The notes under the pieces are model-generated. The model was given only the letters and a program-made list of their open reading frames with translations, was not told the DNA's origin and searched no databases. A DNA stretch of 41,999 bases from a virus, in IMG/VR virus record IMGVR_UViG_3300004463_000111, positions 1 to 41,999 of that record; one strand, written 5' to 3'. The translations under genes were made by a program, and so were the position numbers. Shown piece by piece: positions 19,857 to 41,999 of this stretch (the stretch's first letter is position 1; each line of letters starts with the position of its first letter).

Positions 19857-20057
19857 ATGAACGTAGGTAAAAGCCTGAAGGTCGCACTCGCCAAGAAAGG
19901 CATGCGACAGAACGAGCTGGCAGAGCAAATGCATGTGAGCCGCCAGTGGATCGGCAAGCTGGCCAATAGCGAAAAGGCTGGAATGGGCAGCGTTGAGCTC
20001 ATGGCTGCTGCCTTTGGTATGTCGGTCGGTGACTTCATCAAACTCGGCGAGGATTGA
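19857..20057 (+). CDS. XRE-family (Cro-like) regulator
   Basis: 66 aa from the ATG at 19857, with GGAG 8 nt upstream; an in-frame extension upstream would run into the promoter. The helix-turn-helix is at about 16-36: GMRQNELAEQMHVSRQWIGKL, with the recognition helix SRQWIGKL. The domain has five helices and no separate cleavage or dimerisation domain, so it is Cro- rather than CI-sized. It likely binds the operators at the divergent region, and possibly those at 15.6 and 12.0 kb. It is the first gene of the rightward operon and the only XRE gene seen. Confidence 0.82.
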   Translation: MNVGKSLKVALAKKGMRQNELAEQMHVSRQWIGKLANSEKAGMGSVELMAAAFGMSVGDFIKLGED

Positions 20058-20252: not shown

Positions 20253-20987
20253 ATGAGCTCATGGGTGAAGCTCTCTCGCAAGCTGGCAACCAGTGCGATC
20301 GCGGCGAAGCCTGAGTACCTTGCTGTCTGGGTTCATTTGCTCATGGCGGCTTCGTACAAAGAAGGGGATGTTCTCGTCGGAAGGCAGGTTGTCAGGTTAT
20401 TACCTGGTCAACTTGTGTTTGGTCGCCATAAATTCTCTGAGAAAACCGGCGTTTCAGAGGGGATTGTAAGGTCAGCCTTAAAAGTTCTGGAATCTCTCCA
20501 GCAAATAACCATCAAATCTGAGTCAAAATTCTCAGTAATTACAATAACTAAGTGGTCATTTTACCAGACGGATCAACCAGCAAATAACCAGCAGTTGACC
20601 AGCAAGCAACCAGCAGTTGACCACAATAAAGAAGTACTAGAACTACAAGAAGAAGATCCAAAGACTTGTGACCCGCCAGCGGGATCACGAAAGCGAGTCG
20701 ACAACACGCCGTATGAAGAGATACGAAACATTTACAACGAAATCTGCGTGCCAGTCCTTCCTGAAGCCTTGAAACTGAGCGCTGCCAGGAAGCGGAATAT
20801 CAAGAAATGCTGCGAGATGGAAATCTTCGATGGCAATCCGTTTCAAAGTGGTGAGTTCTGGAGAACGTATTTCAATGCGTGCTTAGCTGACAGCCACTGG
20901 ATCGGTGTTAACGACAGGGGATGGAAGGCTGATATCGAGTTTCTAACCCGTGAAGCCAACGTACTGAAAGTTTTGGAGAGGACATGA
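20253..20987 (+). CDS. Replication initiator / helicase-loader-like protein (O/DnaT type)
   Basis: 244 aa. It should recruit the DnaB helicase to the phage origin. The N-terminal part (WVKLSRKLATSAIAAKPEYLAVWVHLLMAASY..., then LPGQLVFGRHKFSEKTGVSEGIVRSALKVLES) reads as a winged-helix domain of phage replisome organizers. The C-terminal part (YEEIRNIYNEICVP...FWRTYFNACLADSHWIGVNDRGWKADIEFLTREANVLKVLE) is the conserved end of O/DnaT-type loaders. The middle linker (about residues 105-135) is Gln/Asn-rich and is coded by the repeats described separately. Start ATG at 20253; it overlaps the DnaB gene as ATGA. Confidence 0.8.
   Translation: MSSWVKLSRKLATSAIAAKPEYLAVWVHLLMAASYKEGDVLVGRQVVRLLPGQLVFGRHKFSEKTGVSEGIVRSALKVLESLQQITIKSESKFSVITITKWSFYQTDQPANNQQLTSKQPAVDHNKEVLELQEEDPKTCDPPAGSRKRVDNTPYEEIRNIYNEICVPVLPEALKLSAARKRNIKKCCEMEIFDGNPFQSGEFWRTYFNACLADSHWIGVNDRGWKADIEFLTREANVLKVLERT
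20575..20626 (+). repeat. Five 11-bp-phased iterons, candidate replication origin
   Basis: Copies of RACCAGCA start at 20575, 20586, 20597 and 20608; a diverged fifth (GACCACAA) starts at 20619. The spacing is exactly 11 bp, about one helical turn, so all copies face one side of the DNA. A 22-bp higher-order repeat (AACCAGCAGTTGACCA) is visible. An AT-rich stretch lies upstream (about 20500-20570). Iterons inside the initiator gene are the lambda ori layout, where the O protein binds. Confidence 0.7.
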
Positions 20988-22645: not shown

Positions 22646-23185
22646 ATGAAAATCGATTGGAACGTTGCACCAGATTGGGCCATCGGCCATGCCATTCACG
22701 CGACAGCAATGGGTGTGAAGGAAGTTTGGGTGGGTGAGGACAAGTATCAGCAGTTTGATCACTCGCGGCCGTTCCCATACGGCGGGACTGTTGGCGCTGA
22801 TTCCTATCACAATCCGCGCCGCAACCAGTTTGCATTCGAAACGCTGCGGCCTGCTCCGTGGACTGGCGAAGGCCTGCCGCCTGTTGGGACGGTGTGTCGA
22901 ATAGTAAAAATTGATGGGATCGATGCGCCATTGGATACTGAATGCAAAATAGTCGCGCATGAAATGAATGGTGATAATCCTGTCGCCGTCTATCTGCACG
23001 GAAAGGCGTATGCATTGTTTGTTGGTATTGGGATTCAAGAATGTTTTCACCCTATCCGCACGCCTGAGCAGATCGCGGCGGAAGAGCGGCCGGCTGCTGC
23101 GTATGGCATGTGTGCCGTCGTTCCAACCCTAACAAACGTTGATGCTGTGGCGCTGTATGACGCCGGTTATCGAAAGCAGGTATAG
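22646..23185 (+). CDS. Hypothetical protein, paralogue 1 of a tandem pair
   Basis: 179 aa, unknown. It shares with the next gene a middle block (EGLPPVGTVCRIV... in this gene, DGLPPVGTECLMS in the next), a segment on IVAH and a C-terminal block with EQIAAEERPAAAYGMC... and DAGYRKQV. It extends further at the N-terminus (WNVAPDWAIGHAIHATAMGVKEVWVGEDKYQ), which resembles beta-hairpin domains of phage accessory proteins. The identical leader AATGGGGATTTACTGATGA precedes both genes, so a tandem duplication including the ribosome binding site is likely. Confidence 0.6.
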   Translation: MKIDWNVAPDWAIGHAIHATAMGVKEVWVGEDKYQQFDHSRPFPYGGTVGADSYHNPRRNQFAFETLRPAPWTGEGLPPVGTVCRIVKIDGIDAPLDTECKIVAHEMNGDNPVAVYLHGKAYALFVGIGIQECFHPIRTPEQIAAEERPAAAYGMCAVVPTLTNVDAVALYDAGYRKQV

Positions 23186-23238: not shown

Positions 23239-23703
23239 ATGATTACGACACATATTGACGGGTATCGGCTGGTTTTGAATGCGCAGATGGCACGGGTGAA
23301 TCACGGGCCTCAGTACTCAGAATTGACGGGTGATGTGAAGATTGTTCGCCAGGCCGACATGATCCTGGTCTACCTGAAGGAAAGGCAGGAATGGCTGGGC
23401 AATGACGATGGGCTGCCACCTGTGGGGACTGAATGCCTGATGTCCGACGGCAACTATGCCGGCGTGAAGGTGAAGATCATTGCGCACGATGGTTGCCTGG
23501 CTGTGTTCAGTCTTGAAGGTCAGTACGTCGGGCGCACGGCCAAGGCGTTCCGCAAGCTCAAGACTGTTTCAGAGCTTCTGGCTGAAGAGCGCCAGGCGGC
23601 AATCGCTGAAATGTCGAAAGTCTATTACGCGGCTCGCGGCGGGAATGATGTGGCGATGGGCGCCATTTACGACGCCGGCTACCGCAAGCAGGTGGCGGAA
23701 TGA
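23239..23703 (+). CDS. Hypothetical protein, paralogue 2 of a tandem pair
   Basis: 154 aa, paralogue of the upstream 179-aa protein from about residue 55 onward (DDGLPPVGTECLMSDGNYAGVKVKIIAHDG... AEERQAAIAEM ... YDAGYRKQV). The first ~50 residues differ. The shared C-terminal block with the phrase YDAGYRKQV is common in phage proteins of this type and has no known activity. It overlaps the following 51-aa ORF as ATGA. Confidence 0.6.
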   Translation: MITTHIDGYRLVLNAQMARVNHGPQYSELTGDVKIVRQADMILVYLKERQEWLGNDDGLPPVGTECLMSDGNYAGVKVKIIAHDGCLAVFSLEGQYVGRTAKAFRKLKTVSELLAEERQAAIAEMSKVYYAARGGNDVAMGAIYDAGYRKQVAE

Positions 23704-36569: not shown

Positions 36570-37027
36570 TCACTCCTGGTCATTTCGAATTGCCGGAATA
36601 ATAGACCTTTCGGGCCATATGGCGCTGCACTTCCCATGTTAAAGCCCAGCCATTCCAGCCATCGGATCGCCGCGTGGTTCCGGGCGTCGACGTAATTGAT
36701 CAGGCTCATGTGCCTTTCCAGCATCTGCGCCACCAGCGGCCGGCATACGCGCAAGAAGGCCAGAGGGTGTTTCTCGATGGCAGTGGTGCTGATCAGCCAC
36801 GGGATACCAATGCCGGCGCCTGGGTTGTAACTGGCATCGCCAAGTGCTGCCAATGGGATGGCTCCCCAGGAGATCACCATGGGCGCCACACTTGAGCGCA
36901 GGCCCAGGGTCAGGGCTGATGCGATGGATTGGCCACAGCCTTCTTCGATCTCGTCGCGGTCTGCCTGGCGGGCGGTGGCGGCGATGATCTCAATATCGGC
37001 CAGGGTCATGCGCCGCACGCTGATCAC
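36566..37027 (-). CDS. GNAT-like internal virion protein (T7 gp13-like)
   Basis: 153 aa. The N-terminal MISVRRMTLADIEIIAATARQADRDEI is the first strand and helix of a GNAT fold. Later segments IPWLISTTAIEKHPLAFLRVCRPLVAQMLERHMSLINYVDARNHAAIRWLEWLGF match the C-terminal half. The acetyl-CoA loop (Q/R-x-x-G-x-G/A) is not evident, so the protein may be structural, as proposed for T7 gp13. It lies between the tail tubular B and gp14-like genes, the T7 gp13 slot, and overlaps both as ATGA. A second GNAT-like gene is at 3227-3667. Confidence 0.75.
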   Translation of the reverse strand: MISVRRMTLADIEIIAATARQADRDEIEEGCGQSIASALTLGLRSSVAPMVISWGAIPLAALGDASYNPGAGIGIPWLISTTAIEKHPLAFLRVCRPLVAQMLERHMSLINYVDARNHAAIRWLEWLGFNMGSAAPYGPKGLLFRQFEMTRSE

Positions 37028-39369
37028 AGGTCACCCCCAACTTCGTCGCGTGGAATGGCGGCGATCACGTTCATCGGCAACGGGTCATCCTGCACGATGA
37101 AGTAACGCCCGGTGTTCTGCCAGGTGTCGCTGATGCTGACCTCGGCGATCCCGTTGACGGCGGCCATGCTGCCGTAATTGTCGCTGACGGCGCGCTGCTT
37201 CATTTCGAACATCATGTTTTCGGTTGAGCCGATCTTTCCGCCGCGGCTGTCGATGACCAGCAGCGCCACGCTGGCCACTTGTGCCGGCTTGTCCAGCAGC
37301 GTTTCCTGGCCGGCGATGTTGATGGACAGGGTTTCCGCCAGTGAGCGATATGGCAGACCGATATGCACGATGGCCGACGGATCGGGGATGGTGATCTGGC
37401 CACCGGTGACGATCTGCTGCGGGGCCACGTTGCCATCCGCCAGCACGGAAACCACCTTGCCTTCCAGGTGTGCCAGGCCGGTGAAGGTGTCGCGGGCGAT
37501 GGCCCATAGGTTGAAGGCCACGCCACGGATCTCAGGCGGCACCACGCCCAGCGGTTGAACCTGCACCACGGTCGGACTGGTGTAGGCCAGGATCTTGAAG
37601 CGGAACGGGTCGGCAATCGGTGTGGCGGTGTATTGGATCATGTCGCCGACATCGCCAGCGGCAAAGAGCGGGGCCGATGCGGTGACGGTCAGCGTCTCCG
37701 GCGATTGCCAAAGCGTGCCGCCCGTGATGGTGAGGGTGGCGGCCGGGTTCTGGTTGGCGCCGTTGAAGACCAGGCCACAGTCGACAAAGTGCGAGCGGCT
37801 GATGATCGCCGTGCCCTGGTAGCGCTCCATGATGCGGTTGGCGAATCGCTCGACGTAGCGTTTGGTGATGCCGCCAATCTCGCGTTCCACGCACACATAA
37901 ACCGCGTCATCACGGCCTTCTGGCACGGAACACACGGAGATATAACGGCCATCGGTGTGCTGGTGTGACCAGCCGTTAACGTCCTGCTCGGGGATGTAGG
38001 TGCAGTTCACCAGCGCGCCGTCGGATCGGCAGGCCCAAATGGTGTGATAGGGGATCTTCTGGTAATCCCAATCGACCAGGCTGAAGTCCTCGATCAGGTG
38101 CGGCGACAGGATGCTGATGGTGCTGCCACTGAAGCCGTCGGCCTGCAAGCTGTAACCGAATGAAGTGATTTCCCGGCCGCGCTCTTGGGCGTAGACGACG
38201 GCGTTGCCAATCAGCAGTGGGCGCAGCTGGCCGATGCCGTTGTAACTCTCAGCTGCACCGTTGATGGTCTTGGCGGTGAAACCAGACTGCGATCCTTGCA
38301 CCAGCCATTCCGCGCCGTCAGTGAACGGCAGCAAGGACTTCAGCGGCACAAGGTGCATGATCGTGTTGACTTCGTTGCTGGCCATGGTCCAGGTGATCGC
38401 GTCGTCATCCTTCTGCGGCGTCGAATAACCGAAGTTCATGAACACGCCGGTTTTGCTGAACCACAGGGTTTGCGGCTTGTTCAGCGTTCCAGCGTAGGCC
38501 AGGCGCTGCTGGTAGTAGGACACGGCACGGGGGAAGTTGCCGGCGCCCACGAACGGATCGGTGCCGGTGGGCGGGGTGTCGGTCTTGGTCGGCAGAATGT
38601 TGTTATCGGTGAAGGTCAGCGCGGCCGACTTTCCGACAAACCCATAGATCCCGGCGCCAGCGTTGTCCTTGTACACGTTGTAATAGGCCGCGCCCACCAC
38701 GGCGGGCCAGGTCACTGTCGCCTGAACGTTGCTGTTGAAGATGGTCACGATGTTGCTGGTGACGGGTAGCGATTCCTCGATGGCGTTGCTGCCGTCGTCC
38801 AGCACAGCGGTGATCTGGTAGCGCCAGGTTTGCGTGTTGCCGGTGCCGCCGCCCGGGGTGGTGGCGGTGGCGCTGGCTGGTGCGACCACGCTCGGCACCA
38901 ACGACACGGGCGTGATCGTCCAGTTGTCGTGGGCAAAGCGCTTGAGCTTCTGCGGCTTGTGGTTGATCTGCACCATGTCCATCACGTCGCCGGACTGGGT
39001 GAAGTTGATCTGGAACAGTTCGTCGCGGGTGAATGGGGTGACCAGCGTGAACGGTAAGCCAATGTTCGGGCCGGCCGTGTTCAGCACCAGGCCGCCGTTG
39101 CGGTAGACACGCATGGCCAGATGGGTGAATTCCAGCGCATAGGTGTCGTTGTTGTTGAACTTGAAGCGGATCATGCGCGCCACTTCGTTGTTCAGGGTCT
39201 GCGCCAGAAAGTAGGTGCCGGCGCGGTTCACGAAGCCGCCGTAGGGCGTGACGATGTAGTTGCTCAGCTGGCGCAGGCCGTTCTGGTAGGCGGCCAGGTC
39301 AACCCGACCATAGAGCTGCGGGCCGAGTTCGCCGCGGCTGAAGCTGGTTTGAATGAGGCTGGTGGTCAT
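37024..39369 (-). CDS. Tail tubular protein B (nozzle)
   Basis: 781 aa, like T7 gp12. It forms the tip of the short tail. The start TSFSRGELGPQLYGRVDLAAYQNGLRQLSNYIVTPYGGFVNRAGT is the conserved N-terminal signature of phage nozzle proteins. The C-terminal two thirds are beta-rich (for example ALTFTDNNILPTKTDTPP, VLADGNVAPQQIV). Overlaps with both neighbours are ATGA. The length is usual for the family (about 750-800). Confidence 0.92.
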   Translation of the reverse strand: MTTSLIQTSFSRGELGPQLYGRVDLAAYQNGLRQLSNYIVTPYGGFVNRAGTYFLAQTLNNEVARMIRFKFNNNDTYALEFTHLAMRVYRNGGLVLNTAGPNIGLPFTLVTPFTRDELFQINFTQSGDVMDMVQINHKPQKLKRFAHDNWTITPVSLVPSVVAPASATATTPGGGTGNTQTWRYQITAVLDDGSNAIEESLPVTSNIVTIFNSNVQATVTWPAVVGAAYYNVYKDNAGAGIYGFVGKSAALTFTDNNILPTKTDTPPTGTDPFVGAGNFPRAVSYYQQRLAYAGTLNKPQTLWFSKTGVFMNFGYSTPQKDDDAITWTMASNEVNTIMHLVPLKSLLPFTDGAEWLVQGSQSGFTAKTINGAAESYNGIGQLRPLLIGNAVVYAQERGREITSFGYSLQADGFSGSTISILSPHLIEDFSLVDWDYQKIPYHTIWACRSDGALVNCTYIPEQDVNGWSHQHTDGRYISVCSVPEGRDDAVYVCVEREIGGITKRYVERFANRIMERYQGTAIISRSHFVDCGLVFNGANQNPAATLTITGGTLWQSPETLTVTASAPLFAAGDVGDMIQYTATPIADPFRFKILAYTSPTVVQVQPLGVVPPEIRGVAFNLWAIARDTFTGLAHLEGKVVSVLADGNVAPQQIVTGGQITIPDPSAIVHIGLPYRSLAETLSINIAGQETLLDKPAQVASVALLVIDSRGGKIGSTENMMFEMKQRAVSDNYGSMAAVNGIAEVSISDTWQNTGRYFIVQDDPLPMNVIAAIPRDEVGGDL

Positions 39370-39971
39370 GCGTGCGCCTCCGCTTCATAGATCGAGATCG
39401 GCGGGTTGTCTGGCTGCTGCTGGTTGAGGCTGGCAGCCATGGCGACTTGCGTGTATTGCTCGGCCATTTGCAGCAGGGCCTGGCTGGTGGCCATGTCCTT
39501 TTTCAGCGGCACGCAAATCAGCGCGGCCAGTTGGTAGGTCAGCGCCATGACCACGGGCGATGGCAGGCGTTCAGCGGGCAGGCCACGAGCGATGTACAGC
39601 AGTTCCGCCTGCGGCATGTCGGTCACGATGCTCAGGCTGACGTCGCCCTGCTCAAGGTCGTAGGGGATTTCCTCGCCCTGCATCGGGTTGCGGTTGCCCG
39701 GGATCACGATGCGGATGGCGCGCACACAGTCGTTTGGGTAGGTGTAGCGGTAGAGCCAGTTCGTTGGCGGGTTGCCGATGTCGGCCAGCACCACGCTCTT
39801 GGTGGCAAAGCCCCAGTCGGCTGACTTGTACGACAGCAGGCAGTCCAGCGCGGTCGGGTAGAACGTGCTGCACACGATCTGTTCCATGCTCTGCTCGGTG
39901 TCGCTGGCCACCTTCGACGTGCTGCCGACGTGGAACAGGGCCATGTTGTAAATCTCGATCTTGCTCGCCAT
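39366..39971 (-). CDS. Tail tubular protein A (adaptor)
   Basis: 201 aa from the ATG at 39971, with GGAGG 7-8 nt upstream. The T7 gp11-like pattern is visible: SKIEIYNMALFHVGSTSKVASDTEQSMEQIVCSTFYPTALDCLLSYKSADWGFA near the start and a C-terminal helical half (VVMALTYQLAALICVPLKKDMATSQALLQMAEQYTQ). It links the portal to the nozzle. It follows the terminator at 39997-40016 without a visible promoter of its own. Confidence 0.9.
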   Translation of the reverse strand: MASKIEIYNMALFHVGSTSKVASDTEQSMEQIVCSTFYPTALDCLLSYKSADWGFATKSVVLADIGNPPTNWLYRYTYPNDCVRAIRIVIPGNRNPMQGEEIPYDLEQGDVSLSIVTDMPQAELLYIARGLPAERLPSPVVMALTYQLAALICVPLKKDMATSQALLQMAEQYTQVAMAASLNQQQPDNPPISIYEAEAHA

Positions 39972-39996
39972 GGGGCGTCCTCCAGCGGCGCAAATG

Positions 39997-40016
39997 AAAA
40001 GGGGCCTTTCGGCCCC
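39997..40016 (-). terminator. Internal terminator between head and tail modules
   Basis: Read leftward: GGGGCC, GAAA, GGCCCC (40016-40001), then TTTT. It lies inside the late unit, between the 143-aa head gene and tail tubular A. A GNRA-capped stem plus T-run is strong. No promoter is seen after it, so tail genes depend on read-through or antitermination. Confidence 0.8.
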
Positions 40017-40031
40017 TGTCATGGTAGTGGA

Positions 40032-40993: not shown

Positions 40994-41998
40994 TCAGACC
41001 ACGCGGGCTTCGTTGGACAGGATCGCGTCCATGCGACGAACTGGGACGTCATCGAACATCACGGCTTTCTTGCCAGCCACTTCGCCCATGTTGATGAACA
41101 CGTTTTTGCTGTTCTTGATCTGGCGGCGCAGGTACGAACGGATGGTGCGCGGCACGTAGAAGCGCAGGGTGCCGGTGGTTTCGTTCGGCAGCAGTTCCAG
41201 CATCTGCACCATGATGTCGACCAGGTCCGGACCGGTGGCGGCGTCCTTCTTCAGCGTGGTCACGTCGATGTTGGCGGCGCGCACCACGTAACGCCAGTCA
41301 CGCACGGTCAGGCCGGCATCCCAGCTGTAGTGGGTGCGGTAGCCTTCGTAACGACCTGGCGGGGTCTGGTTGTCGAGCAGGGTTTCTTCCTTGGTTTCGC
41401 CGGTTTGCAGGCCGCCCACGGTGCCATCCGGGAAGATGCCGTGCACGGTGGTATCGCCGAACGCGATCAGCCACATGGAAGTGTTGGTCGAACCGGTGCC
41501 GCCACAGTCGATGATGTTGTCACCGTTCTCGGCCGACAGGCTGTTGAAGCGCGGCGCGAAGCCAGTGATACGTTCCGGGTTGACCGCAGCGTCACCGTAG
41601 ATCAGCTGGGTGCCCATGTTCTGCGACATGCCTTCAAGGAATGCCCGACTCTCGGACATCATGAAGCCTTCCTTGTCCTTGGAGATCGCCACCAGCTTCT
41701 TGTCGATTTCCGAGTAGGTTTCGAGCATGCCGGTCTGATCTCGGATCTGAACGGTGGTCGATTTCTCTGGCTGCACACCGTAGTTCAGTTTGCGCCAGGT
41801 ACCGGTTGGTAGGCCGGAACGAATGGTGGTCTTGTGACCGGTGCCGTCGTTACCCGGCATCCATGGGATGTCCAGAAGCATTTCGTTTTGCAGGGAAAGG
41901 ATCTCGATAATTACCGCGATCTTTTTGCCTGCGTCGGTTCCTTCCTGGCGTTTCGCCAAGTCGGCCAGCGTCAGCGAGACGGTAGAGAGCAATGCCAT
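40994..41998 (-). CDS. Major capsid protein
   Basis: 334 aa, HK97-type shell protein of the BPP-1/epsilon15 type by length and order. The start MALLSTVSLTLADLAKRQEG, the segment VIIEILSLQNEMLLDIPWMPGN and later YSWDAGLTVRDWRYVVRAANID, then YVPRTIRSYLRRQI, match the family as I recall it. A late block (KKAVMFDDVPVRRMDAI) is typical of the C-terminal end. It follows the scaffold gene (via the join) and precedes the decoration gene. The ATG is at 41996-41998; its upstream site is visible only at the left end of the window. Confidence 0.92.
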   Translation of the reverse strand: MALLSTVSLTLADLAKRQEGTDAGKKIAVIIEILSLQNEMLLDIPWMPGNDGTGHKTTIRSGLPTGTWRKLNYGVQPEKSTTVQIRDQTGMLETYSEIDKKLVAISKDKEGFMMSESRAFLEGMSQNMGTQLIYGDAAVNPERITGFAPRFNSLSAENGDNIIDCGGTGSTNTSMWLIAFGDTTVHGIFPDGTVGGLQTGETKEETLLDNQTPPGRYEGYRTHYSWDAGLTVRDWRYVVRAANIDVTTLKKDAATGPDLVDIMVQMLELLPNETTGTLRFYVPRTIRSYLRRQIKNSKNVFINMGEVAGKKAVMFDDVPVRRMDAILSNEARVV

Positions 41999-41999
41999 G
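41952..41999. repeat. Terminal direct repeat, right copy
   Basis: Exact copy of bases 1-48. See the left copy: together they show circular closure of the assembled genome. Confidence 0.9.

Follow-up and report, generated by a model that had tools for sequence, protein, structure and literature searches.

An 11-bp iteron array inside a DnaD-like phage initiator gene, a probable replication origin with counterparts in related phages

Introduction

Does a run of short direct repeats inside a phage initiator gene mark the place where replication of that phage begins? The question is raised by IMG/VR virus record IMGVR_UViG_3300004463_000111, of which the whole stretch of 41,999 nucleotides was analysed (the window). 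The record is a viral genome and carries an identical 48-bp direct repeat at both ends (1-48, 41952-41999), as would be seen if a complete genome, circular or circularly permuted, had been assembled with overlapping ends. A preliminary description of this DNA had proposed a probable intragenic phage origin, and this is supported here by selective constraint over 20487-20660, by the instability of the DNA, by 69 relatives and by a precedent in phage L. Judged from sequence, the array is very probably the core of a phage replication origin lying inside the gene of its own initiator.

An 11-bp array in the initiator gene

RACCAGCA copies start at 20575 (AACCAGCA), 20586 (AACCAGCA), 20597 (GACCAGCA) and 20608 (AACCAGCA), in exact 11-bp steps. 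These positions, the diverged fifth copy at 20619 and the location inside the initiator gene are as the preliminary description had them (Table 1). A truncated last copy (CCACA) is common to most relatives. The window contains 12 occurrences of the motif, where 3.7 ± 1.8 would be expected, and their sole cluster consists of the four array copies. When the whole 42-kb record was scanned for period 11, the array was the top locus with 24/33 matches; first-order Markov simulations (42 kb, n=200) gave a maximum of 22, and 0/200 reached 24. In synonymous-codon shuffles of the window initiator gene alone, period 11 was supported at p=0.01 (z=3.0). This is only suggestive for a single gene, so the periodicity is settled by comparative evidence.

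The same gene scores higher at period 22 (26/33 vs 24/33 matches; z=3.9 in synonymous shuffles), and Tandem Repeats Finder favours a 22-bp unit. Together with the dimeric binding of RepA_N winged helices (PMC7145576), this would fit an origin whose 22-bp iterons each take an initiator dimer, the 11-mers being half-sites in direct orientation. However, a perfect 11-bp array scores at 22 too, and copy numbers of 3 or 5 are common among relatives. Dyads of at least 6 pairs are absent from the window initiator gene, the 11-bp sites being direct and non-palindromic. The 22-bp unit is considered improbable.

A possible accessory iteron pair upstream is the third best period-11 place of the window. 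It stands 2 bp out of the main register; its codons are strongly conserved, but the LQQITIKS peptide is equally so. A near-repeat also flanks the array, with ACAATAACTAAGT at 20541-20553 and ACAATAAAGAAGT at 20623-20635, 82 bp apart.

Table 1. Features of the initiator locus and its operon (positions in the window)
Feature	Position	Strand	Sequence or basis
Cro/repressor-like regulator, operon head	19857..20057	+	phrog_8 E=5.7e-9
Initiator gene, 244 aa (PHROG DnaD-like helicase loader / O-like)	20253..20987	+	ORF, profile matches
Winged-helix N-domain codons (aa 1-105), presumed iteron binder	20253..20567	+	AlphaFold2, pLDDT mostly >90
Candidate origin, synonymous-site constraint	20487..20660		synonymous codon identity 0.80 vs 0.45
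Possible accessory iteron pair	20496..20514 (starts 20496/20507, 11 bp apart)	+	CTCCAGCA / AACCATCA
Left AT-rich stretch, candidate unwinding element	20503..20563		least stable 50 bp of record
Iteron 1	20575..20585	+	AACCAGCAAAT
Iteron 2	20586..20596	+	AACCAGCAGTT
Iteron 3	20597..20607	+	GACCAGCAAGC
Iteron 4	20608..20618	+	AACCAGCAGTT
Partial iteron 5	20619..20626	+	GACCACAA
Right AT-rich, purine-rich stretch, candidate unwinding element, lambda-like position	20619..20663		
Helical C-domain codons (aa 154-244), exchangeable module, probable helicase contact	20712..20984	+	AlphaFold2
DnaB-type replicative helicase gene, 462 aa	20984..22372	+	PF03796 E=3.7e-69

The 11-bp step across relatives

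Relatives of the initiator (257 sequences from IMG/VR, GTDB genomes and phage records) were dereplicated to 69. Among periods 10-14, period 11 was the best in 67/69 of them (65 outright, 2 tied). It exceeded synonymous shuffles at p<=0.05 in 64/69 and at p<=0.01 in 49/69; the same test on neighbouring control ORFs gave 2/48 and 0/48. The preliminary description had called exact single-turn phasing unusual, but among the relatives it is the rule.

The array, with a median of 4 copies, starts close behind the codons of a conserved NWxxYQ motif. From clade to clade the iterons differ in sequence but not in the 11-bp step. The types include ACCAGCAnnnn (Pseudomonas type), TTACCAGCAnA (HK022), TGTCCAACGGA (phage L type), CAACAAATCAA (Staphylococcus), TGTCCATCAAC (Lactobacillus Lrm1), GGCCAGCAAAG and others. 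The array is absent from relatives L156 and L159. Phages of both Proteobacteria and Firmicutes share the geometry, and further Firmicutes and Deltaproteobacteria-type genomes come from the GTDB matches. These matches also contain single MAG loci assigned to Anaerolineae and Gastranaerophilales, with the caveat that MAG labels can be wrong. A distant relative on a plasmid of Segatella hominis (Bacteroidota; L262, CDS 556-1863) has about 8 GACA-type copies in 11-bp steps; despite this array, the top-scoring period of the gene is 13.

Length variants of 66 bp (HK022 clade) and 33 bp (Staphylococcus) keep both reading frame and helical pitch. The two half-arrays of HK022 lie 66 bp apart, and the spacers between them vary in sequence. 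Selection for frame alone favours such length steps, so these variants are consistent with constraint on pitch and not decisive for it.

Selection on the DNA sequence

Where 17 close relatives have the same amino acid, the fraction of comparisons with identical codons is 0.80 over codons 78-134 (20487-20657), vs 0.45 over codons 0-77 in the rest of the N-domain (p=2.9e-12), and the value returns to background by about 20675. A corresponding synonymous peak is found in the HK022 clade, at about 0.75-1.00 over codons 115-180 vs about 0.5 over most of the rest. The O genes of this clade also show a second block of high synonymous identity at the 5' end (codons ~5-35, 0.8-0.95), which may reflect recombination or another embedded element.

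The linker encoded by the array is Q/N/T-rich in most relatives, which is what would be seen if the linker required a Gln/Asn-rich repeated peptide. This is hardly credible as the source of the pattern. As had been argued from the outset, an 11-bp period is not divisible by 3, and synonymous shuffles, which keep the peptide, destroy the period. Synonymous sites are conserved. In relative L004 the codon phase of the array differs from that of its close relatives, and the ACCAGCA cores are intact. The DNA similarity of Pseudoalteromonas phage HS2 to the window is confined to 20506-20626 and aligns with 1-nt gaps. Synonymous conservation, the phase change in L004 and the HS2 match are thus not explained by the peptide. 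The alignment of orthologs suggested in the preliminary description was carried out, and the period is kept while the amino acids vary. Between phage Orisa03 and the window, DNA similarity ends at 20663, which is also where the element ends on the right. The locus is therefore conserved as DNA beyond what its protein accounts for.

Such conservation, in an early-operon position, might also be expected of an element acting as RNA or in transcription (by antitermination, attenuation or control of the mRNA). An Rfam search gave no match, the gene has no dyads of at least 6 pairs, and the helical-turn periodicity points to recognition of the duplex; the chance that the element acts in this way is taken to be minimal.

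AT-rich DNA on both sides

The preliminary description had noted an AT-rich stretch adjoining the repeats, and 20503-20552 proved to be the least stable 50 bp of the 42-kb record. The least stable 100 bp (20463-20562) and 150 bp (20503-20652) fall at the same place. A second AT-rich stretch, beyond what had been described, covers 20617-20666, the third least stable 50-bp window of the record. Over 20619..20663 synonymous identity is 0.96-0.98. Across relatives, AT content climbs on both sides of the array and, nearest to it, exceeds the synonymous expectation. The locus thus combines an initiator-sized repeat array within the initiator gene with adjacent AT-rich DNA.

AAGAAT, AAGAAG or AAAGAA occurs 3' of the array in 59/69 relatives. 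In most relatives, nine-bp repeats of the ACAAGAATGTAAAGAATG type recur within some 77 nt on the 3' side of the array (L100, L105 and L020, for instance). Their role may lie in unwinding or single-strand binding, or they may reflect no more than a Lys/Asn-rich linker. The AAGAATGnn repeats were rejected as an independent DNA signal, their A-content being 0.487 vs 0.461 in synonymous shuffles, a small excess. With a 9-bp period, divisible by 3, and so small an A excess, the DNA-level case for the 3' stretch rests on its synonymous conservation.

In the O gene of L016 (~nt 511-535 of the CDS), and also in L231, a palindrome with 10-bp arms, TCTCTAATACTGACGTATTAGAGA, lies just 3' of the A-rich stretch; it is possibly a structural part of HK022-type origins. 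Cumulative GC skew was discarded as an independent origin test, as it follows gene orientation here and is uninformative.

The initiator, its operon and its modules

Profile matches (phrog_2514 E=2.5e-29; phrog_345 E=3.1e-24) place the initiator among the DnaD-like phage initiators of PHROG 2514 and 345. PF04492 had no match to it at E<=1, and neither did the RepA_N profile match. Scores fell below the curated cut-offs of Phage_rep_org_N (PF09681 13.6 vs 23.3 bits; TIGR01714 14.7 vs 49.8 bits), and relatives L012 and L013 are within 1.5 bits of the Pfam PF09681 cut-off. A sequence search of solved structures with the initiator returned no meaningful relative.

In the AlphaFold2 model, residues 111-140 form a linker with pLDDT <50 between two folded domains, a winged helix and a helical C-domain (aa 154-243), both modelled with confidence. 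The array closely follows the winged-helix domain, and the iterons and the right stretch encode this disordered linker, so DNA constraint and coding can occupy one stretch. The 3' end of the initiator gene overlaps the gene of the DnaB-family helicase, which matches TIGR03600 (phage_DnaB) at E=2.2e-111, under the model's own cut-off. A promoter and terminator scan around the operon found sites no more numerous than in shuffles.

Foldseek searches of the PDB with the N-domain gave weak, generic winged helices alone, AspA and TubR among them (E 0.03-0.1). These two would fit a partition (centromere) or operator array, serving a segregation or autoregulatory protein and not the start of replication; the centromere proteins ParR and TubR bind tandem short iterons (PMC5016525). 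Against this, the array lies within an initiator gene beside a helicase gene and has AT-rich flanks, no parA/parM/tubZ-like neighbour was found among the genes profiled (a subset of the ORFs), and the origins of lambda, P22 and SPP1 lie at an equivalent place. A partition or operator array is accordingly very unlikely, and an origin is again preferred.

Among near relatives, the N-domain and the array stay joined while C-domains switch. The C-domain of BUCT566 protein O is 53% identical to that of the window, but its N-domain is PF04492, and its gene carries dyad iterons and no period-11 array. P22 gp18, with a C-domain 29% identical to the window's, likewise has PF04492 and dyads, and its best period is 23 bp. 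PF04492 scores 123 bits in lambda O, 130 in P22 gp18 and 68 in BUCT566 O; dyads of at least 6 pairs are present in lambda, P22, BUCT566 and HU1. As sharers of the C-domain that have PF04492 carry dyads, each class of DNA-binding domain has its own iteron geometry. Similarity of iterons is correlated with similarity of N-domains (rho 0.29, p=0.001); this co-variation was rejected as proof of binding, being confounded by common descent.

Two neighbouring phrog_3483 genes (function unknown; 22646-23185 and 23239-23703) are 39% identical over ~115 aa and constitute a tandem duplication. The regions 1146-2873 and 37024-40022 encode a head-tail adaptor and tail proteins in PHROG families, including a tail-tubular-protein match. 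Gene content suggests a podovirus-like virion together with a replication module of lambdoid type.

Proposed mechanism and significance

The best reading is a lambda-like intragenic origin with single-turn, non-palindromic iterons, served by a DnaD-like winged helix and not by a lambda-O domain. From these comparisons we infer initiator binding, strand opening, helicase delivery and use of the origin. The winged-helix N-domains of the initiator would line up head-to-tail on the four to five 11-bp sites, each helix turn taking one protomer, with all protomers on one face of the DNA and able to contact each other. This complex, helped by negative supercoiling and probably by transcription of the gene, would open the flanking AT-rich DNA. 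The C-domain, on the flexible linker that the array encodes, would then deliver the neighbouring phage DnaB-type helicase. One protomer per site is suggested by the absence of dyads and the common odd copy numbers; as period 22 is as strong as period 11 in the window gene, a two-protomer unit is possible. On balance the one-protomer-per-turn mechanism is rather probable. It predicts that a half-turn insertion between sites kills the origin and that a whole turn does not.

The broader proposal is a widespread and largely unrecognised class of origins, in which winged-helix protomers would form a one-faced, head-to-tail filament on 11-bp iterons. Origin and DNA-binding domain would travel as a cassette, the C-domain and helicase partner being exchanged and the step kept despite iteron change. 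To this proposal we give an even chance. If true, scanning the initiator gene for period 11 would locate the origins of many phages and prophages, those of Staphylococcus, Listeria, enteric and Pseudomonas phages among them, directly from sequence. The locus would also be an unambiguous example of regulatory DNA that keeps a fixed helical pitch within a stretch coding for a disordered linker, and DNA opening by a winged-helix initiator without an ATPase would become testable.

Comparison with known systems

What is new here is the family-wide 11-bp geometry across phages of Proteobacteria and Firmicutes; one precedent was found, gene 18 of phage L. No survey of an 11-bp origin class was found in the literature, which is weak evidence because subscription journals were mostly outside the search. 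A putative intragenic origin with four iterons has been described in Francisella phage KIRK (PMC7924643).

In gene 18 of the Salmonella phage L, six imprecise 11-bp TGTCCAACGGA repeats were proposed as the likely origin (PMC8022706), in a study that covers one phage and contains no helical-phasing or family analysis. In phage L as in the window, 11-bp direct repeats lie within an initiator gene of the O/18 type, and a gene for a DnaB-type helicase follows. Unlike the window, phage L has a different iteron sequence, two half-arrays and another N-domain subfamily. Relatives L231-L243 carry the phage L iteron and score period 11.

TubR on tubC, which consists of direct repeats, and AspA are winged helices that assemble along DNA. 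Unlike the reading preferred here, they act in partition and have no helicase partner; as the fold match is weak, they serve as an analogy only. The RepA_N plasmid initiators (pSK41, PLE RepA) are closer in placing a DnaD-like winged-helix N-domain on iterons (PMC7145576). Their iterons are semi-palindromic and dimer-bound, whereas the window has no dyads and its initiator is not a RepA_N match.

The replisome organizer gp38 of SPP1 binds direct repeats of oriL within gene 38, a system that has been biochemically reconstituted (PMC6316719). As in the window, where binding and unwinding are predicted, the repeats lie inside the initiator's own gene next to an AT-rich unwinding element; unlike the window, SPP1 has a second, distant oriR.

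The preliminary description had compared the locus with ori-lambda. The comparison holds for layout and fails for the binding domain and its sites: lambda and P22 have the PF04492 N-domain and 18-19-bp dyad iterons, spaced 20-24 bp and dimer-bound, and no semi-palindromic iterons of this kind are found in the window gene. As in lambda ori/O and P22 gene 18, the origin would lie in the initiator gene, iterons are followed by an AT- or purine-rich stretch, and the helicase function comes next. The layout of iterons plus AT-rich DNA, shared with lambda, P22 and HK022, is a further line of evidence for an intragenic origin. The A- and purine-rich right stretch matches the AT-rich part of ori-lambda in position, and lambda and P22 have a ACAAAAGACA-type A-rich sequence at the equivalent place.
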